A DNA stretch of 45,749 nucleotides from a virus, in IMG/VR virus record IMGVR_UViG_3300011252_000669, positions 1 through 45,749 of that record; one strand, written 5' to 3'. The stretch's first letter is position 1, and every line of letters starts with the position of its first letter. Positions 27,393 through 39,105 of the stretch are shown here, in pieces. The notes beneath the pieces are model-generated. The model was not told where the DNA came from and ran no database searches. It saw only the letters and a list, made by a program, of their open reading frames with translations. The translations under genes and the position numbers were made by a program.

Positions 27393-27746
27393 TCAAGGCT
27401 CTATATATTCTCTGTCTGGTGGATAGTTAGGGATCTCTGGGGCAGAGTCCCAACCGTAAACCACCCACCTATCCCCCGATTTGACTTCGGAAGTGGGGAT
27501 CAATTGTCTCCAGTAGATAGCATTGCCATATTGACTCCCACCGTCGGGCAATCCTATCCTTCCACTGGCAGAGGCATTAGAAGAGTCAGAACCTATCGTA
27601 CCTACTAGTAAGTTTCCTCGATACATTTCGACTATCCACTTACTAGTAGGTTCTAACAAACTGTCTATCCCTACTGATTGATATCCGTATGGATTTATCG
27701 TAATTGTGGCAGGTCCAGCAGACCCGTTTGCATCTTGTAGAGACAT
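27393..27746 (-). CDS. Hypothetical late protein
   Basis: A 117-residue protein from the ATG at 27746 (AAGG upstream); a TTG at 27773 would overlap the preceding gene. Beta-rich: GPATITINPYGYQSV, SKWIVEMYRGNLLVGTIGSD, YWRQLIPTSEVKSGDRWVVY. A beta-sandwich fibre- or head-decoration-like fold is possible; no family recognised. Confidence 0.5.
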   Translation of the reverse strand: MSLQDANGSAGPATITINPYGYQSVGIDSLLEPTSKWIVEMYRGNLLVGTIGSDSSNASASGRIGLPDGGSQYGNAIYWRQLIPTSEVKSGDRWVVYGWDSAPEIPNYPPDREYIEP

Positions 27747-27754
27747 TTCACCTT

Positions 27755-28540
27755 TTATGCTGTCCACTGCCAATCCAGAAAAGGGATGCGGACTTGTCCG
27801 TTACCCCCTCTCAAGGGTTCAGAATCGATATCTGCGGCAATGATATAGTCTGCAGATTCCCAGTCTGGATTGAACATTCCTTCGATGGGGTCTGGGTCAC
27901 CAGCATCAGCACCATCGATGGTATCGTCAGAAGAGTCAGACCAGTTGTTGAGGAGGATTCCAAGGTCAGCGGCATCGACGATTCCGTCTGCATTGAGATC
28001 GGCAAGAGGATCGTCAGTATTAAACACAGCCATCAAGATCCCTTCGTCTGCACCATCTACCTGACCGTCTCCGTTGAGATCTGCTAGAAGAGAAGAATTA
28101 CGGATTAAAACATCCCATGAGATTGGGACCTCTACCACCGCGTTCGCCCCTACGGTAGATTCATATACCCCGATAATTCTCCTTGTATCAGGCTCCCAGC
28201 ACAGTTCGCTACCATCTGGGATATTCGGTAATGATCCCTCAGGAAGAAGCACAGAGATTCGGTATCTCATTTTTCTGTTAACGTTAGTAACGTTGGTGAA
28301 GGTGACGCCTCCAGTGGAAGACATTACACCAACTTTGCCAGGGTTCCACTCGGTGTACTCATAAGAGGAAAGTACGTTTCTGGTGGGGCCTTGATATTCT
28401 CCAACCACCACGACCGTTCCAGACCCATCTGGAACCCTAACAGTTGAATTCAATGGTTGTAAAAAAGGTAAGCAATCCTCAGCATAAGCAGGGGTGCTAG
28501 ACACCAGAAGAAGGCTTAGAACTATCATTAGCGTTTTCAT
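27755..28540 (-). CDS. Secreted protein with dockerin-like repeat pair
   Basis: A 261-residue protein. The ATG at 28540 has GGAG 6 nt upstream and is preferred over 28552. Residues 1-20 (MKTLMIVLSLLLVSSTPAYA) are a signal peptide with an AYA cleavage site. Residues 25-145 are a beta-rich domain. Residues 152-200 are two dockerin-type loops (LADLNGDGQVDGADEGILM, ADLNADGIVDAADLGILLNN), each with the Asp/Asn calcium positions. This type is common in Planctomycetota exported proteins. Role unknown; it may be host-derived. Confidence 0.7.
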   Translation of the reverse strand: MKTLMIVLSLLLVSSTPAYAEDCLPFLQPLNSTVRVPDGSGTVVVVGEYQGPTRNVLSSYEYTEWNPGKVGVMSSTGGVTFTNVTNVNRKMRYRISVLLPEGSLPNIPDGSELCWEPDTRRIIGVYESTVGANAVVEVPISWDVLIRNSSLLADLNGDGQVDGADEGILMAVFNTDDPLADLNADGIVDAADLGILLNNWSDSSDDTIDGADAGDPDPIEGMFNPDWESADYIIAADIDSEPLRGGNGQVRIPFLDWQWTA

Positions 28541-28766
28541 TTTCAACTCCATACTTGTTTGCAGAAACTTTCACCCATGCTCTGGTGAAAACATAAACAG
28601 AAGCAATCAATCCAGCGGATAACCATAAAGCGGTTTCTCCACCTTCAGTGACTGGCATTTTGTTAAAGAACCCCAGTTGATCAGCTATTGGGAGTCCAGA
28701 GATTCCAATGGTTGCCCAGAATTCTGTAGACTTGATTCCAGGCTTAGGACCTTGGTTGTTGTTCAT
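28497..28766 (-). CDS. Small membrane protein, candidate holin
   Basis: An 89-residue protein (MNNNQGPKPGIKSTEFWATI...). A first moderately hydrophobic segment (about 18-36) and a strong helix (ALWLSAGLIASVYVFTRAWV) are followed by a polar tail. The GxKSTEFW motif plus a membrane helix resembles small phage holin-like proteins. AAGGAGG precedes the ATG at 28766 and TATAAATA lies 22 nt upstream. Holin function is not shown. Confidence 0.45.
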   Translation of the reverse strand: MNNNQGPKPGIKSTEFWATIGISGLPIADQLGFFNKMPVTEGGETALWLSAGLIASVYVFTRAWVKVSANKYGVENENANDSSKPSSGV

Positions 28767-28788: not shown

Positions 28789-28796
28789 TATTTATA
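28789..28796 (-). promoter_or_regulatory. T4-type late promoter box
   Basis: TATAAATA on the minus strand, 22 nt before the ATG at 28766. Confidence 0.55.
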
Positions 28797-29393: not shown

Positions 29394-29759
29394 TCACTTG
29401 AACCTGACGACACCTTGGTCTGTGGTGTAGAAGATTTCATCAAAAACGGCATCGCACCATGGAGTACATAACCTGCAGGGCCTGCTCATCCTCATCTCTC
29501 CCTCTCGGTTGAATCGGAAGTTGTATAAAGACAAACCGTCTTTCGGTCCTTTATACTTGAGCAATGCATCTAATTCGGAATGTACTTCATCATATCGGTA
29601 TCCGTACTTCTTAGCCAGGGGGTGAGTCTTGAATTGGTTCACCCCCACCGACTCTACGGCTCCCTTGCGGACGATCATCGACACATGCTTTTTCTGTCTG
29701 TCGATGTCCAGTGCCACTGGGAGGGCGATCTCAGTAAACTTTTCGACTCGCAGTCGCAT
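29394..29759 (-). CDS. Cytidine-deaminase-fold protein
   Basis: A 121-residue protein from the ATG at 29759. It has the zinc-deaminase signature: VNQFKTHPLAKKYGY, then VHSELDALLK (H60-S-E62) and about 30 residues later SRPCRLCTPW (PCxxC, C95 and C98). This supplies the His, Glu and two Cys of the CDA/dCMP deaminase superfamily; Ser replaces the usual Ala. Substrate unknown. It overlaps the adenine-deaminase-like gene by 29 nt and the tRNA genes follow. Confidence 0.65.
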   Translation of the reverse strand: MRLRVEKFTEIALPVALDIDRQKKHVSMIVRKGAVESVGVNQFKTHPLAKKYGYRYDEVHSELDALLKYKGPKDGLSLYNFRFNREGEMRMSRPCRLCTPWCDAVFDEIFYTTDQGVVRFK

Positions 29760-30753
29760 CGTCAATCAATCCCAAATAGTGATCCTTCATCTCGTCGTCG
29801 ATGAATGCAGACTTGAAGCTGTTCTTCGCCAGTTCAATGATATGATAGTCATCTAGATCGAATGCATCAGCAACTGCAATGTAGTTATCATTGATATACC
29901 CACCGAAATAGGAAGGATCATCTGAATGGATAGACACCATCACCCCCATTTCGAAAAGATCCATAATATTATGGTCTTCCATCTTGTCGAATACCTTCAG
30001 CTTAACGTTGGATAGAGGACAAATAGTGAGAGGAATCTGGTGCTTAGCAAGATAATTGACCAGAGGAAAATCATCAGAGCACCTCACACCGTGGTCAATC
30101 CTTTCAGCACCAAGGTCGTTCAGAGCACTCCAAACGTATCCAGCAGGACCTTCTTCTCCCGCATGAGCAACGCAGGAGTATCCTTCTTCTTTCGCCTTCT
30201 GAAATACTTCAATGAAATCGTGTGGTGGATTGTCCATCTCGGAAGAGTCCAAACCCACTCCATAGATCGTATCTCTGAACGGAAGAGACTTATGAAGAGT
30301 CTCCATAGCATCCGATGCTGGAAGGTGCCTCAAGAAACACATAATCAGCTTGGTATCAAGACCATAGGTCGCCGCAGCCTCTTCACAAGCACTGTTGATA
30401 CCATTTACGACAGTCTCGATCTCCACCCCACGGGCGGTGTGAGTCTGCGGATCGAAGAAGATCTCTGCATATCTGACATTGTTCAGATGAGCCTTAGCAA
30501 GATAGGCACGGGTCAGTTCATAAAAATCCGATTCATCACACAAGACACTAGCACCCGCATAGTAGATGTCTAGGAATGATTGCAGATCAGAGAAATTATA
30601 TGCCCTTCTTGCTTCTTCTGGAGTCTTGTATGGGATCGAAATCCCATTCTTTTCTGCCAGTCTAATCATCATCTCGGGTTCAAGTGTACCCTCAATGTGT
30701 ACGTGTAACTCCGCTTTGGGCAAAGAGTAAATGAGTTCGTTTCGGTCTTTCAT
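29731..30753 (-). CDS. Adenine/adenosine deaminase
   Basis: A 340-residue protein from the ATG at 30753 (GGAG 6 nt upstream), chosen over 30765. Metal and catalytic motifs are intact: ELHVHIEGTLEPEM, CVAHAGEEGP, IDHGVRC, LTICPLSNVKL, VSIHSDDPSYFGGY. The NVRYAEIFFDPQTHTARGVE stretch is typical of the bacterial and fungal adenine deaminase branch rather than classical adenosine deaminase. Predicted reaction: adenine (or adenosine) plus water to hypoxanthine (or inosine) plus ammonia. Paired with a CDA-fold gene. Confidence 0.88.
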   Translation of the reverse strand: MKDRNELIYSLPKAELHVHIEGTLEPEMMIRLAEKNGISIPYKTPEEARRAYNFSDLQSFLDIYYAGASVLCDESDFYELTRAYLAKAHLNNVRYAEIFFDPQTHTARGVEIETVVNGINSACEEAAATYGLDTKLIMCFLRHLPASDAMETLHKSLPFRDTIYGVGLDSSEMDNPPHDFIEVFQKAKEEGYSCVAHAGEEGPAGYVWSALNDLGAERIDHGVRCSDDFPLVNYLAKHQIPLTICPLSNVKLKVFDKMEDHNIMDLFEMGVMVSIHSDDPSYFGGYINDNYIAVADAFDLDDYHIIELAKNSFKSAFIDDEMKDHYLGLIDDATASRKVY

Positions 30754-30773
30754 GAAGTTCTCCATAATGTAAA

Positions 30774-31186: not shown

Positions 31187-31332
31187 GATGAATTCTTCTT
31201 TCCTTTGAGATTCGGTTTAATCTTCTTACCGAAGATCTTGTTATAATTTTCTCGATATTTTTCCATATCGATCTTTCTTGGACTGTCGCCCTTCCCAGCA
31301 GAGTGGACCCTACGATTTCCCTTTGAGGACAT
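31183..31332 (-). CDS. Small basic conserved phage protein
   Basis: A 49-residue protein from the ATG at 31332 (MSSKGNRRVHSAGKGDSPRK, then YRENYNKIFGKK). This resembles the very short basic proteins of many phages that carry GxGSKxR and NYDKIFGK motifs; role unknown. It starts inside the endolysin 3' end and overlaps the next gene by 4 nt. Confidence 0.6.
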   Translation of the reverse strand: MSSKGNRRVHSAGKGDSPRKIDMEKYRENYNKIFGKKIKPNLKGKKNSS

Positions 31333-31735
31333 TCTGCACCTTCTTCCAATACTTAACGGTTGCAGTTTTATTATATCCGTTAGGCCCACCGTTGTGAATC
31401 CTTGCACGATCTTGATCAGTGACAGGACGGCCTAGCCTTCTTTGGATGGCATATCTTGCCATGTAAGCACGGACAATCTTCTCTGAGTACCCCTTATATA
31501 GGCAATCCCGATAAGACCCGCCGATCGATCGGTCGTACTCTACCGCGTCCTTCCAGTAGGCGTACCAGATCTGATAAGGACCAATCGCCTTGCCTCCATC
31601 CCCCACCGCTCCCTCGGTGCAGTTAGACTCCACCTGACAGATAGCAGACAAAAAACGATCTGTAATCTTGGCGGTCGATGTATAATAACAGGTAGTCGCA
31701 CACATGGCGGTTGCCAAAACAACTTGAGTGATCAT
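31310..31735 (-). CDS. Lysozyme-like endolysin with N-terminal signal/anchor
   Basis: A 141-residue protein. Residues 1-22 form a hydrophobic signal-like segment (MITQVVLATAMCATTCYYTS). Then FLSAICQVESNCTEGAVGDG, AIGPYQIWYAYWKDAV, IVRAYMARYA and RIHNGGPNGYN follow. This is the pattern of lysozyme-like murein hydrolases with the candidate catalytic Glu in QVESN. Several Cys could form disulfides outside the cytoplasm. The signal-like start suggests export. AAGGA lies 7 nt before the ATG. Confidence 0.7.
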   Translation of the reverse strand: MITQVVLATAMCATTCYYTSTAKITDRFLSAICQVESNCTEGAVGDGGKAIGPYQIWYAYWKDAVEYDRSIGGSYRDCLYKGYSEKIVRAYMARYAIQRRLGRPVTDQDRARIHNGGPNGYNKTATVKYWKKVQNVLKGKS

Positions 31736-31836
31736 AGTCTAGTCCTTGATCTTTCAACACAGTTCATACAAACTACCCACCACATGATGAGCAGACGGGC
31801 TGTCATCATCCAAACCTCTAGCGGTTCAGACTCCAT
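31732..31836 (-). CDS. Possible micro membrane protein upstream of endolysin (34 aa)
   Basis: A 34-codon frame (MESEPLEVWMMTARLLIMWW...) that overlaps the end of the CobT-like gene and the start of the endolysin gene (ATGA). It has one membrane helix and a basic C-terminus (CVERSRTRL). Position directly before the endolysin makes a holin-like role conceivable, but this is only positional. Confidence 0.4.
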   Translation of the reverse strand: MESEPLEVWMMTARLLIMWWVVCMNCVERSRTRL

Positions 31837-34084
31837 GACCACAGATCCTGTCGACGAAGATGTCCATGATCTTCGTCAGGCCCTTCTTCTTCTTCGCTTC
31901 TCGGATCATCGCATTCGCCACGACCCGACTGTTCGAACCGACTTGGACATCATCTAGGCCCTTGATCTTCTTGTTTCCTTCTGCCATCATCACGATGTAC
32001 TCGGAGTACCCTCTGGCATCACCGCATGAGATTGCACCTTCGTTCTTGAGACTTTCGCACTTCTTCTCAAATGACTTGCTATCTCCCTGATCAGGAATGG
32101 CACTGGCATAATACTTACCTTCGGTGAGGTAGATCCCGATCACAGGAGCACCAGTCTCATGTCGCAACCACCTGAAAAACGATTCAGTGTTGTAAGCATA
32201 AGCATCTTCGCTTTCGAACAGGGTACCGTCATGAGACTTGAGGATCCTTTGATTGTTGTAATCAATGCTGGACCATGATTTTCCATCCCAAGAATCCTTC
32301 TGGAGAGGACCAGCTCCACTGCAACCGTCGGTGAGGAAGACAGTATTCACCACCTGAACCCCGTGCTTAGACTTGAAGTCGATTACCACTTGACGAGCGG
32401 CGGTGATGGCATCATCGAGAGGAGTACCACCAAGGTGCATTCGGGGATTAGTGATACCCCAGGCCTTCATGTGATTGTAATCCTGCATCATCCCTTCAGA
32501 GAAAAGGTAGGTGAAGCACTCGATCCAGTCGGACCGCTTGAGATCAGAGCTGAGCATGTTCACCAGATGAAGGCTTTCACAGCACTTGACATCGCCGACC
32601 TTCGGACTTTTGTGCATCTCCCTGTGGGCATCACTATCCCATCGAACATCGAACTTGGCATTTCGACTTGCCCACCCAGACGATCGGTGAGACCACGCAT
32701 TGGTGAAGGCATAGACATCGAACGGGATATTCACCTTCTTACAAAACATTGCAAGGACCAACAACTGCTTGACCGTATCGAAAATGTTCGGGGACATCGA
32801 ACCAGACCAGTCGACGAACATCACCAGGCCGTGACTCTGACCATCTTCTACAGTGGATGACTTCAGGAAGATGTCCTCGGACCAGCGATAGTTGATCATC
32901 TTGATCGTATCAAGAATGCCAGTATCCGAGGACATTACCCTCTTCGATTCTTCTGCAGCCTTCCGCATTTCGAATCGCTTGACCATATTGCCCACAATCT
33001 TCTGTGATTCCTTTTGGAAATCCAAGGCAGCCTTCAAGCATCGGATGTACTTGTCTTCGGGAAAACTACACTGCCGATAGGTATTCAGGAAATCCTGGGC
33101 CGAAACAATGATATTCGACAAGTCGATCTGGTTCGGGACGGTCACATACTCCCGATTTCTCGTCCTAGATCCAGGGCTCTTCGCCATATCCTTGAGATTG
33201 TCAGCGAGTGCAGACTGAGTCATGGATTCTTCTGGCAGTGGACCATTGCTAGAACCAGAGCTGGACGGTCCAGAGGAATCATCCTTCTCGTCGCCATCAC
33301 CATCGGTTTCAGTAGAAGGCTCAGATCCTTCATCAGCGGGGTCGGATCCACTGGGGCTCTCACCTTCTCCGTCATCCTCATCTGAATCATCTTCACCACC
33401 ATTAGCAGAACCATTGCCGCTGTCGGATTCAGCCTGCTGGTCACCTTCGGGATCGGCAATGCCAGACTGATTTTCATCAGTCTCATCCTCTTGCTTGGAT
33501 GCAGAGTAGTTCATCAAGGTGACAGCGGTATCGATGACTTCGTCGAAATCTTCACATTCGTCGACCATGGTTACCAAATCCGACTCTTCACTGGTGAATG
33601 GGATCTGCAGCATGGTTCCGACCTTGAAGTGGAGATTCACTCGGTCGATGAAAGACAATTCGCCGAGATCATCGATTCCCGCGACTCCGAAGAAATCACG
33701 TTCGAGCAGCTCGTTGTATGCGGATCGGAAATCGCGACGGAGGCCTGGGAATCGAGACTGGATGTCCTTCTCGATTCGAGCATCTTCGACCACGTTCAGG
33801 TAATCCATCCGAGTACTCTTGGGGATACTATCGGTGGGGTCCATGTCGTCGAGGACCTTTTCCAGATCCACATCGGGGGTGAACAGTGCGTGTCCGACTT
33901 CATGACCGACCAGCATGTCGTAGAGGCTGTTGCTGGCATTCTCCCAGATGGGGAGAGTCAAGGTACGGGACTCGGTGTTGAACATCGCGGTATGCACTGG
34001 CTGGTGCTCCACAGTGATATCCTCGGTCGCCAGCAGCTTTGCCAGCAGACTCTTTGCCTCGGTATTGATCGTAGTAGTGTTCAT
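31826..34084 (-). CDS. cobT: CobT-like VWA protein with HExxH
   Basis: A 752-residue protein from the ATG at 34084, which is leaderless at the promoter 34091-34119; the upstream extension to 34231 is not coding. Residues 55-70 contain LVGHEVGHALFTP (HExxH). About residues 240-330 are acidic Ser/Gly/Asp/Glu-rich linker. The C-terminal part holds a VWA domain with MIDAS DWSGSMS and VFLTDGCSG. This layout is that of CobT-like partners of MoxR/CobS ATPases; the ATPase lies at 8783-10156. Cobaltochelatase function would need CobN, not seen here. Confidence 0.75.
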   Translation of the reverse strand: MNTTTINTEAKSLLAKLLATEDITVEHQPVHTAMFNTESRTLTLPIWENASNSLYDMLVGHEVGHALFTPDVDLEKVLDDMDPTDSIPKSTRMDYLNVVEDARIEKDIQSRFPGLRRDFRSAYNELLERDFFGVAGIDDLGELSFIDRVNLHFKVGTMLQIPFTSEESDLVTMVDECEDFDEVIDTAVTLMNYSASKQEDETDENQSGIADPEGDQQAESDSGNGSANGGEDDSDEDDGEGESPSGSDPADEGSEPSTETDGDGDEKDDSSGPSSSGSSNGPLPEESMTQSALADNLKDMAKSPGSRTRNREYVTVPNQIDLSNIIVSAQDFLNTYRQCSFPEDKYIRCLKAALDFQKESQKIVGNMVKRFEMRKAAEESKRVMSSDTGILDTIKMINYRWSEDIFLKSSTVEDGQSHGLVMFVDWSGSMSPNIFDTVKQLLVLAMFCKKVNIPFDVYAFTNAWSHRSSGWASRNAKFDVRWDSDAHREMHKSPKVGDVKCCESLHLVNMLSSDLKRSDWIECFTYLFSEGMMQDYNHMKAWGITNPRMHLGGTPLDDAITAARQVVIDFKSKHGVQVVNTVFLTDGCSGAGPLQKDSWDGKSWSSIDYNNQRILKSHDGTLFESEDAYAYNTESFFRWLRHETGAPVIGIYLTEGKYYASAIPDQGDSKSFEKKCESLKNEGAISCGDARGYSEYIVMMAEGNKKIKGLDDVQVGSNSRVVANAMIREAKKKKGLTKIMDIFVDRICGHGV

Positions 34085-34090
34085 CCACCC

Positions 34091-34119
34091 ATTGTACCAG
34101 AAAGGCGTCCTCGTGTCAA
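34091..34119 (-). promoter_or_regulatory. Sigma70-type promoter, leaderless start
   Basis: TTGACA (34114-34119), 17-nt spacer ending CTGG, TACAAT (34091-34096), then GGGTGG and the ATG at 34084. Predicted +1 coincides with the A of that ATG. Confidence 0.8.
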
Positions 34120-34138
34120 TTCGGTCAAAAGTATAAAA

Positions 34139-34251
34139 GCAAACCCCCTTCCTGGTATTCGGAAGGGGGTTTGCGTTTGTGGATGAACTGTGGATGAGTT
34201 GTGAATGGCATTGAGACTGGGTCTCAATCAAGTTAGGTGCCTGTTAGGGTC
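34139..34251. repeat. Composite intergenic module, copy C
   Basis: A perfect 14-bp stem (34139-34152 with 34161-34174, C-rich arm) with an 8-nt loop. TGTGGATGA at 34178-34186 and 34189-34197, with a degenerate third copy (TGTGAATGG) at the same 11-nt spacing. ATTGAGAC/GTCTCAAT inverted repeat (34210-34228). GTTAGG units from 34232 to the RNR stop at 34250. Order of the last two parts is swapped relative to copies A and B. Confidence 0.75.
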
Positions 34252-36236: not shown

Positions 36237-36974
36237 TCAACCCTTGGCAAGATATTTTGAAGACCAAGGAAAAAGGCCTTCCATCACGCCTGAAATAGCA
36301 ATGGCATACTGCCTTATCTCCCACTGTGCATGGTCATCAATCCTCTGACTGATGAACCTCATATAAGCGGCTAGACTTCCAGTCCAGAACCATTCGGTGA
36401 ACATTCCTTGGGGAAGAACAAATCTTGCCTGTTCTGGTGCCACGCCCTGTTCCAAAAGCTGGTTGTATGTATAAATTGCAGATCTGATTGTGTTGTCAAA
36501 TACCTGCTGGGTCTCATTGTCTACATCAATAAAATCTTCACTGCCCTGTTTAGCACCGTTTGTGGGTCTACCTCTCCACTTGGGACGATAGAATTCGGGA
36601 TCAAAAGAGACATATCTTCTGCTAATTTCGTTTTCCACAAATCCCTGCTTGTGCTTGAAGAATTGGGTTCTGATAGAGACTGGTGCCTTAATCCTCAGAG
36701 TCACTTGAGGATGTGCGAAAGGCGTCCAATGTCCATGTTCTGCAAGGTATTTGAGTAATTTTCGGTCTTTCTTACTCAGGACATTTAGATCCTCTGCGTG
36801 GTAGGTGGACCCGCTCTCTTTCAGTCGGGACTTAGCATCCTCATCTACATCCCATTCGGTCTCTTTCGCAAATGACACCCTGGCGGCATTACAGACCGTG
36901 AGGTCAGAACCCATGCTATCTACCAGTTGAACAAAACCGCCCTCTACCCCACCAATTTCGATCGGTTCTTTCAT
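36237..36974 (-). CDS. thyX: Flavin-dependent thymidylate synthase ThyX
   Basis: A 245-residue protein started at the ATG at 36974, an ATGA overlap with the GlnII stop. It has HWTPFAHPQVTLRIKAPVSI, then FFKHKQGFVENEISRRYVSF, the ThyX signature (RHRxxSxNExSxRY type) with KHK in place of RHR, as in some phage ThyX. PEQARFVLPQGMFTEWFWTG and SLAAYMRFISQR also fit. It methylates dUMP to dTMP using flavin and folate. Expected length for the family. Confidence 0.88.
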   Translation of the reverse strand: MKEPIEIGGVEGGFVQLVDSMGSDLTVCNAARVSFAKETEWDVDEDAKSRLKESGSTYHAEDLNVLSKKDRKLLKYLAEHGHWTPFAHPQVTLRIKAPVSIRTQFFKHKQGFVENEISRRYVSFDPEFYRPKWRGRPTNGAKQGSEDFIDVDNETQQVFDNTIRSAIYTYNQLLEQGVAPEQARFVLPQGMFTEWFWTGSLAAYMRFISQRIDDHAQWEIRQYAIAISGVMEGLFPWSSKYLAKG

Positions 36975-38050
36975 GAAGAGGTTCCCACCAAAGATGGACA
37001 TTCAACAGAAGAAACAGTCTTCACCAAGCATCTGATAGCACGGTAGGGATCGATATTTGAAGCTGGACGTCTGTCCTCTAGATAACCTTTCCCAGTCTTC
37101 GCAGTGCTGGGTGGGATCCTGACAGAAGCACTCCTATCAGAGTCTCCATAAGAGAAGGAAGCAATACACGCGGTTTCGTGCTTACCAGTCAGTCTCTCGT
37201 TATTCCCCAGTCCGTAGTTCTCAATGTGGTCTACATGGTTCTTTCTCAGGGCATTGCAAATATCTTCAATGTATTCTTCACCACCAACATCTCTGAGGGC
37301 CTTAGTAGAGAAATTAATGTGAGCACCCGAACCGTTCCAATCGCCATGAACGGGCTTAGGAGTCAGACTAATAGAAAGATTTTCTCTCTCTGCTAAGATC
37401 TCCATCAGATATCTCGATACCCACAGATCGTCGCAGATATCCAGTGCGTTAGCAGTTCCAATCTGATACTCCCACTGTCCAAGCATAACCTCTGCATTAG
37501 TTCCACAGAGAGGGATACCACAAGATAGACAGGCGAACGCATGATCTTCTACAAGCTTACGCTGGACTACCACATCTCCGCCCACTCCGCAATAGTACCG
37601 ACCCTGGGGGTGGGGGAACTCGGTGGGGTTAGTAGGCCATCCGATGGGGCGACCGTTATTTGGGTCCAAGAAGGTATATTCTTGCTCGATCCCAAACCAC
37701 ATATCTTCAGAACCCTCAGATGAGATCAGTGCTTCTCTGAGAGACTGTCTGGTGTTGGATGAGTGAACCCCACCGTTCTTATCAAAGACCTCGCAGAGGA
37801 CGATGAAAGAATTGACGCCGATCTGATTTTCGATTGGATTGGAATAGACCCTAATCGGTACCAAAAGGCAATCACTATCGCTACCTTCTGCCTGCTCGGT
37901 GCTCGAGCCATCAAAAGACCATTCTGGAATGTCTTCAACACCGATTTGGTTGTTTTCCGTAGCAACAGTAGCATACTTAGTCTTGCTTCTGATATTGGGT
38001 GTATCGTAACCATCTAACCAAAGATATTCAAACTTACAATTAAATTCCAT
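36971..38050 (-). CDS. glnII: Eukaryotic-type glutamine synthetase (GlnII)
   Basis: A 359-residue protein from the ATG at 38050, which overlaps the primase TGA (TGATG). Family motifs: EYLWLDGYDTPNIRSKTKYA, WFGIEQEYTFLD, GDWNGSGAHINFS, RLTGKHETACIASFSYGDSD, SVRIP, and a near-complete C-terminal EDRRPASNIDPY. This is GS type II, not bacterial GlnA. It makes glutamine from glutamate, ammonia and ATP. The C-terminal 20 residues diverge from the usual ending, but catalytic parts are intact. A very unusual phage gene. Confidence 0.92.
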   Translation of the reverse strand: MEFNCKFEYLWLDGYDTPNIRSKTKYATVATENNQIGVEDIPEWSFDGSSTEQAEGSDSDCLLVPIRVYSNPIENQIGVNSFIVLCEVFDKNGGVHSSNTRQSLREALISSEGSEDMWFGIEQEYTFLDPNNGRPIGWPTNPTEFPHPQGRYYCGVGGDVVVQRKLVEDHAFACLSCGIPLCGTNAEVMLGQWEYQIGTANALDICDDLWVSRYLMEILAERENLSISLTPKPVHGDWNGSGAHINFSTKALRDVGGEEYIEDICNALRKNHVDHIENYGLGNNERLTGKHETACIASFSYGDSDRSASVRIPPSTAKTGKGYLEDRRPASNIDPYRAIRCLVKTVSSVECPSLVGTSS

Positions 38051-39105
38051 CAGATTCTTCTCCATTGATTCAATCTAGCGGTCGCTTCAAGACCAGAAAA
38101 AGTGTTATTATCGATCTCTTTGCGGATTTCTTTCGCAGACCTGTCGAAAATCATATCATTCACATCTTTATGATTGTTCGAACCAGGCCAAATGCACACA
38201 TCCCTACCGCTAGAAATCAACTGCTCATTATACTTAACAATCTGCTTATTCCTTGGTTCGTTATCCAAAACGAAAGTCATGTCTGAATTGGCGAACCTGC
38301 TGGGGATCTTCTGCATGGATCCAGCACCAACCATGGCAATAGAATTAGGGATGAATAGGCTGTCGATGGGACCTTCAACCACGTAGATTCGCTTCTTGGG
38401 GTTAGCACGCCACATACCATACCACAGTCTTTCAATACTTTTATCTGCCTTAACGGTGATATATTTCACCGTTCTCCTAGCATTATTCTCGTCCTTCATG
38501 CTGAGAGATCGACCTTGGACCGCAACCACTTCTCCCTCTTTGTTATAAAAAGGTATCACCAATCTGGGGTCATAGGAGAATAATTTCTGGTCTGGATCCA
38601 TATTGGCAGCGAGTTTGCCAAAATTATCCGTAAAGAACAAGATATTCCAATGCTCTTTGGGAATCAGTCTAAGACTGGCGAACTCTACTGCTGGGTGATC
38701 TTTGGGCAGATCTTTAAGGCAGGTGCAACCTTTCGGTCTTTTACCAAACTTGCCTTTAGGAGACAACATCTTGAACACTTCTTCATCCTTCTTCTTCTTA
38801 AAACCGTTATTTATCTTAGGCTTTAAAATACCTCCGCTGAATAACTGCATGCAATATTCTTTGTAGAGGGATGGGTTAGTGTCCTTGAGAAAAGAATGGA
38901 GATTGCACCAGTGATCACAGTTATGACACTTATAAAAGAATCTACCATGCTTAGAATAAAAGTATCCTCTAGCCTTCTTTTTATCCCTTTTGCTGTCTCC
39001 ACAAATGGGACACGAGCAATTGGCGAGAGAATCTTTCTTCCACTTAAAATTGCGTAAACTACCTGCCGCAATGTTAATGAATTGTTTATCTACTATTATG
39101 CTCAT
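38050..39105 (-). CDS. T4 gp61-type DNA primase
   Basis: A 351-residue protein from the ATG at 39105. The N-terminal zinc-binding domain (CSCPICGDSKRDKKKARGYF, FYKCHNCDHWCNLHSFLKD) and the TOPRIM domain (IYVVEGPIDSLFIPNSIAMV, MTFVLDNEPRNKQI, DVNDMIF) closely match T4 gp61. It makes RNA primers for lagging-strand synthesis together with the gp41-type helicase. It overlaps the 70-residue gene by 20 nt. Confidence 0.92.
   Translation of the reverse strand: MSIIVDKQFINIAAGSLRNFKWKKDSLANCSCPICGDSKRDKKKARGYFYSKHGRFFYKCHNCDHWCNLHSFLKDTNPSLYKEYCMQLFSGGILKPKINNGFKKKKDEEVFKMLSPKGKFGKRPKGCTCLKDLPKDHPAVEFASLRLIPKEHWNILFFTDNFGKLAANMDPDQKLFSYDPRLVIPFYNKEGEVVAVQGRSLSMKDENNARRTVKYITVKADKSIERLWYGMWRANPKKRIYVVEGPIDSLFIPNSIAMVGAGSMQKIPSRFANSDMTFVLDNEPRNKQIVKYNEQLISSGRDVCIWPGSNNHKDVNDMIFDRSAKEIRKEIDNNTFSGLEATARLNQWRRI

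Follow-up and report, generated by a model that had tools for sequence, protein, structure and literature searches.

A conserved dockerin-bearing protein family in T4-like phages and a second tailed phage lineage

The locus in a marine T4-like phage fragment

The window (the whole stretch of DNA analysed here) is a 45.7-kb virus fragment from IMG/VR (IMGVR_UViG_3300011252_000669, positions 1 to 45,749). It belongs to a marine T4-like phage of bacteria and encodes a T4-type DNA polymerase with ~50% identity to those of Synechococcus phages, together with UvsX, a DnaB-type helicase, a primase, ribonucleotide reductase, thymidylate synthase and five tRNAs. The original prediction had placed a secreted phage protein with a dockerin-like repeat pair at 27755-28540, and the feature does lie there, but its ORF is on the minus strand and spans 27755..28552 (265 aa), with an ATG at 28552 and an alternative, internal ATG at 28540; a start at the latter would leave MKTLMIVLSLLLVSSTPAYA as the signal-peptide-like N-terminus.

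Two small genes on the same strand overlap the ends of the dockerin gene. The one encoding an 89-aa membrane-like protein (28497..28766, minus strand) overlaps its start and is kept as the upstream partner in T4-like relatives, the same gene being found in the sequence upstream of the L102, L103 and L114 dockerin genes; neither the 89-aa protein nor its L100 homologue matched a Pfam or PHROG family above cut-off. The other, for a 126-aa protein (27393..27773, minus strand), overlaps the dockerin stop and is the conserved downstream partner in T4-like relatives (cluster c3); its AlphaFold model was too poor for use (mean pLDDT 56).

A T4-type late-promoter octamer, TATAAATA, at 28789..28796 (minus strand) precedes the 89-aa gene, and with it the operon, by 22 bp; the operon thus carries the element expected upstream of T4-like late genes. 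The window has six copies of this octamer where 0.87 would be expected, none of 100 shuffles reaching that number, and the octamer was not conserved at the corresponding upstream place in the relatives checked. The predicted location in a late block holds as regards this octamer but not as regards gene content: of those window proteins that were scanned (Pfam, PHROGs), none was recognised as a virion protein, and it is therefore the promoter motif that carries the assignment. Further TATAAATA sites, several of which lie shortly before the start of a gene, could serve to delineate late transcription units (e.g. 16824, 17743 and 29208, besides 28789, all on the minus strand).

About 3 kb upstream of the dockerin gene, a candidate endolysin with a hydrophobic, signal-peptide-like N-terminus is encoded at 31310..31735 (minus strand). 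It resembles Destabilase (i-type lysozyme; PF05497, E=1.4e-17), a family whose name is more familiar from animals, and a Destabilase gene is also found near the dockerin gene in the relatives L003 and L100. Three other minus-strand genes of the window deserve mention in their own right. A glutamine synthetase-like protein (36971-38065; PF00120, E=1.5e-17, plus sub-threshold PF03951), also encoded in L003 (1-756), represents an unusual nitrogen-metabolism gene for a T4-like phage; an adenosine deaminase (29731-30765; PF00962, E=2.5e-91), here in a T4-like phage, is likewise common to L003; and an 801-aa protein (31826-34231) matched the PHROG family 'peptidase' (phrog_459, E=1.5e-179) and no Pfam family.

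Domain architecture of the dockerin protein

The first 24 residues, MELKMKTLMIVLSLLLVSSTPAYA (28481..28552, minus strand), have the basic start, hydrophobic core and AYA end of a probable signal peptide, in agreement with the original prediction, and the protein is probably exported, judging by this N-terminus. Residues 25-153 (28094..28480, minus strand), with two conserved cysteines, C27 and C118, were anticipated to form a beta domain and are confidently modelled by AlphaFold2 as a beta-sandwich; in this model, built from 23 sequences, the beta domain and the dockerin module mostly reach pLDDT values of ~80-98. A fold search with the beta domain returned weak Ig-like and adaptor-ear matches, none of them confident, the best viral match being the unnamed protein A0A516MFS6 (E=1.2e-14).

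The dockerin module spans residues 157-206 (27935..28084, minus strand) and is supported by Pfam (PF00404), NCBIfam (NF041540), PDB sequence matches to dockerins and a Foldseek match to 2y3n_B. It contains two canonical calcium-binding loops, DLNGDGQVDGAD (aa 158-169; 28046..28081, minus strand), in which D158, D162 and D169 are invariant among 23 homologues, and DLNADGIVDAAD (aa 185-196; 27965..28000, minus strand), in which D185 and D196 are invariant and D189 is conserved in at least 90% of the same homologues; both loops would be expected to bind calcium. With Pfam Dockerin_1, hmmscan gave 17.0 bits against a cut-off of 22.9, and the genome search gave 21.2 bits (E=1.8e-5), rising to 28.3 bits, above 22.9, when both repeats were summed. 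Score (with the repeats summed), loops and predicted fold thus all place the module in PF00404. The predicted dockerin part overlays 2y3n_B at 1.0 Å rmsd (51 columns, 41% identity, prob 1.00). The GC-type dockerin family NF041540 matched at E=1.3e-6 and 28.7 bits, 0.3 short of its 29-bit cut-off, and ~60 residues trail the module in the window protein, which accordingly falls outside that family. This C-terminal extension (aa 207-265; 27758..27934, minus strand) is confined by alignment to the T4-like members and was modelled with low confidence. The protein matched no virion family in Pfam, PHROGs or NCBIfam.

A protein family in two phage lineages

In profile scans of viral contigs, the beta domain turned up together with the dockerin pair on 42 other IMG/VR contigs. 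The scans with the beta domain only used two subgroup profiles of it, because a profile of all members was too diverse; in these, a dockerin was joined to it in 27 of the 27 ORFs long enough to judge. The window protein shares 27-54% identity with its homologues, with D158, D162, D169, D185 and D196 invariant; C118 is invariant and C27 at least 90% conserved (23 homologues). Pairwise dN/dS values of 0.05-0.28 indicate that both domains are under purifying selection. Given the domain pair shared by the homologues, their conserved calcium ligands and these dN/dS values, a chance origin is excluded.

Two distinct phage lineages carry the family. In the T4-like relatives (L003, L100-L103, L114 and others), the gene order is small membrane gene, dockerin gene, 126-aa gene. 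The second, a group of tailed phages (L002, members in the range L104-L126 and others) with terminase, portal and capsid genes, has the dockerin gene after one of tail-fibre-like type (Mtd_N in L113, E=2.6e-16), usually with a 70-83 aa gene in between, and in many loci it precedes terminase or scaffold/capsid genes, an order that is conserved. The protein stops right after the dockerin in this second lineage, and the module is C-terminal in most non-T4 homologues, whereas T4-like members add ~60 aa. In L164 and several non-T4 loci, other small membrane genes follow the dockerin gene. Putative signal-peptide-like N-termini and the conserved cysteine pair are found in most members of both lineages; N-termini like that of the window protein occur in L003, L100-L103, L164, L180 and L194, and are clear in the non-T4 L180 and L194. 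A signal peptide is impossible in at least four members, namely L115, L122, L123 and L126. Outside the dockerin family, a T4-like relative (L166, 1149-1640, in G012) encodes an acidic protein of 163 aa in which a single loop, DVNNDGKVNSSD, resembles an EF-hand.

A host origin for the beta domain was considered and rejected: it was absent from 392 Planctomycetota genomes, where the two weak matches were about what chance would give. In INPHARED there was no match to the window protein, to the trypsin-like protein described below or to a consensus dockerin, tblastn with the Planctomycetota-type consensus returning nothing at E 0.01. Gene 40 of Vibrio phage VvAW1 has been reported to resemble dockerin type I proteins in blastp (PMC3558961), and the literature searched held no description of a phage dockerin family. 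We conclude that this is a real, conserved family of phage proteins, undescribed in the sources searched, in which a known module appears in a new setting.

Dockerin modules on other phage proteins

The module also occurs on phage proteins of other kinds. It is found on a trypsin-like protein without signal peptide (L004, L010, L017, L128, L129, L146 and L152), assigned as such by a GDSGSP or GDSGTP motif only, with no Pfam protease match (ORFs at L004 639-1769, L017 4167-5237 and L128 5188-6255, and also in L146 and L152), on T4-like baseplate-wedge proteins (L008, L011, L136 and L143) and on tail-fibre-like proteins (L025 and L026). Two T4-like contigs combine a gene of the window type with a baseplate-wedge protein bearing a dockerin: L124 and L136 (phrog_17744, E=3e-52) in G028, and L164 and L143 in G032. 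In L102, L103 and L114, a gene for the trypsin-like protein with dockerin lies directly upstream of the window-type gene. The window, a genome fragment, contains no dockerin-bearing virion gene that we could see.

A further set of proteins (L015, L018, L019 and L020) combines a signal peptide, a conserved domain of no named family, conceivably a divergent cohesin, and a C-terminal dockerin; a cohesin-dockerin identity for them was dropped when Pfam and PDB profile searches gave no support for a cohesin.

Candidate hosts and docking partners

Among at least 70 bacterial loci carrying the dockerins closest to the phage module, 41 belong to Planctomycetota, as do 20 of the 22 best loci listed. 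In 38 of 42 such loci (two from unnamed bacteria, the rest from Planctomycetota), the module sits at the very C-terminal end of its protein. The original proposal that such motifs end exported proteins in this phylum agrees with the nearest tags but not with the window protein, whose dockerin has ~60 aa after it. A prophage syntenic with the second phage lineage was present in one of 392 Planctomycetota genomes (28-32% identity in terminase, portal and capsid), and 398 Pseudomonadota and 296 Bacteroidota genomes yielded no such prophage. This contrast between phyla, suggestive and drawn from a single positive genome and a lineage other than that of the window, may point to a Planctomycetota host, and the window phage may likewise infect Planctomycetota. 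Adenosine deaminase was set aside as a host marker: its identity of 51-58% to genomes from a single Planctomycetota subset was not taken as proof of host, because the comparison included no control phylum.

The idea that the phage dockerin works through a cohesin gained no support from the genomes searched. No Pfam cohesin was found in the window or in 34 dockerin-bearing phage records (one weak sub-threshold match), and a phage-encoded cohesin partner was rejected on these grounds; among bacteria, it was missing from 19 of 22 dockerin-rich genomes and, when candidate hosts were searched, from 179 of 203 Planctomycetota genomes, 24 being positive. Dockerin matches, by comparison, numbered from 11 to 89 per genome in the Planctomycetota sampled.

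Possible roles of the phage dockerin protein

A role at the host surface, as originally suggested, is plausible, and the motif is of Planctomycetota type. Our tentative preference is for a protein that is made late, is exported and would fill the docking site on which dockerin-bearing virions rely. The signal peptide would take the late phage protein across the host membrane, a disulfide would probably form in the oxidising envelope, and the calcium-loaded, Planctomycetota-type dockerin would attach to the host partner that holds the host's own dockerin-tagged exported proteins. With the docking site occupied on the infected cell and on debris, further dockerin-bearing virions would adsorb less (superinfection exclusion), and progeny would be freed at lysis. 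Site occupation appears the most likely role because related phages carry the module on baseplate-wedge and tail-fibre-like proteins. The dockerin fold, the signal-peptide-like starts, the cysteine pair, the 27/27 domain pairing, purifying selection, the co-occurrence in G028 and G032, the neighbouring trypsin-like gene in L102, L103 and L114, the tail-fibre-like gene ahead of it in the other lineage, the Planctomycetota source of the closest dockerins, the syntenic prophage and the late-promoter octamer all speak for it. Against it are the rarity of cohesin in candidate hosts, the virion dockerin not seen in the window fragment and an indirect link to the host, since the prophage belongs with the other lineage and comes from a single genome.

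The four members that cannot have a signal peptide are better explained by a virion or lysis-released protein. We consider it rather unlikely that the family as a whole is a virion-associated adhesin, present in the particle or joining it in the periplasm or at lysis, whose dockerin binds the host surface during adsorption. The non-T4 gene does sit in a structural block, after a tail-fibre-like gene and before terminase or scaffold/capsid genes, and dockerins on baseplate-wedge and tail-fibre-like proteins fit as well, but signal-peptide-like starts in all T4-like and several non-T4 members (L180, L194) would be odd for a virion protein, and no virion family was matched in Pfam, PHROGs or NCBIfam. 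The small membrane proteins adjoining the dockerin protein (overlapping upstream in T4-like members, with different ones following in several non-T4 loci and L164) and the nearby Destabilase lysozyme of T4-like genomes also fit a part in a lysis cassette, in which the protein would strip or loosen dockerin-held surface proteins or aid disruption of the outer envelope. The late-promoter octamer would suit this lysis role too. We nonetheless regard it as unlikely, for the small membrane proteins gave no hit to a holin family, the Destabilase gene is several genes distant, and by eye the mature protein has no spanin-like features, with neither lipobox nor transmembrane helix.

EF-hand loops are common as structural calcium sites, and cohesin is missing from most dockerin-rich genomes, both of which would accord with the dockerin pair being a calcium-stabilised structural tail or sorting tag that docks to nothing outside its own protein. 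This seems improbable in view of how strongly the module is constrained in both lineages and of its presence on unrelated phage proteins (protease-like, baseplate and fibre), which suggests a shared function. Site occupation, a virion adhesin and a lysis factor are not strongly separated by the evidence.

The phage dockerin suggests that the host's surface-attachment tag has been put to use by a T4-like virus and at least one unrelated phage group. A wider scheme, which we hold to be doubtful, is that several phage lineages of Planctomycetota base both adsorption and surface exclusion on the dockerin anchoring of their host: baseplate and fibre dockerins would attach and the exported, soluble beta-domain dockerin would control the same site, the host partner being mostly not a recognisable cohesin. 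Most dockerin-tagged Planctomycetota genomes are without a recognisable cohesin, and the phage tag offers a small, expressible bait for the docking partner. Should the tag serve as a receptor ligand, this would account for how the phages of this phylum, few of which have been studied, recognise their hosts, and dockerins might mark the hosts of uncultured phage contigs.

Comparison with known dockerin and exclusion systems

The planctosome, a cohesin/dockerin machinery proposed for freshwater Planctomycetes (PMC6461901), likewise involves non-cellulosomal dockerins in Planctomycetota and is peptidase-linked, to be compared with the trypsin-like phage dockerins; it is, however, a cellular hypothesis concerning one family, and phage proteins are not known to take part in it. 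With cellulosomal dockerins (PF00404, PDB 2y3n_B), the phage module shares two calcium loops, helices and the predicted fold, but it sits on a beta domain of no known family rather than on a carbohydrase, and cohesin is absent in the phages and found in few candidate hosts. GC-type dockerin-anchored proteins (NF041540) provide the best profile match to the phage dockerin, just below the curated cut-off, and differ from the phage protein in that the latter has no C-terminal GC and, in T4-like members, is ~60 residues longer. As to function, some phage superinfection-exclusion proteins block the receptor at the cell surface, T5 Llp being an example. Like Llp, the phage dockerin protein may be a small exported phage protein acting at the surface of the infected cell, a purely functional comparison; the Llp-type proteins have a lipoprotein anchor, whereas the phage dockerin protein would rely on a calcium-dependent docking module.
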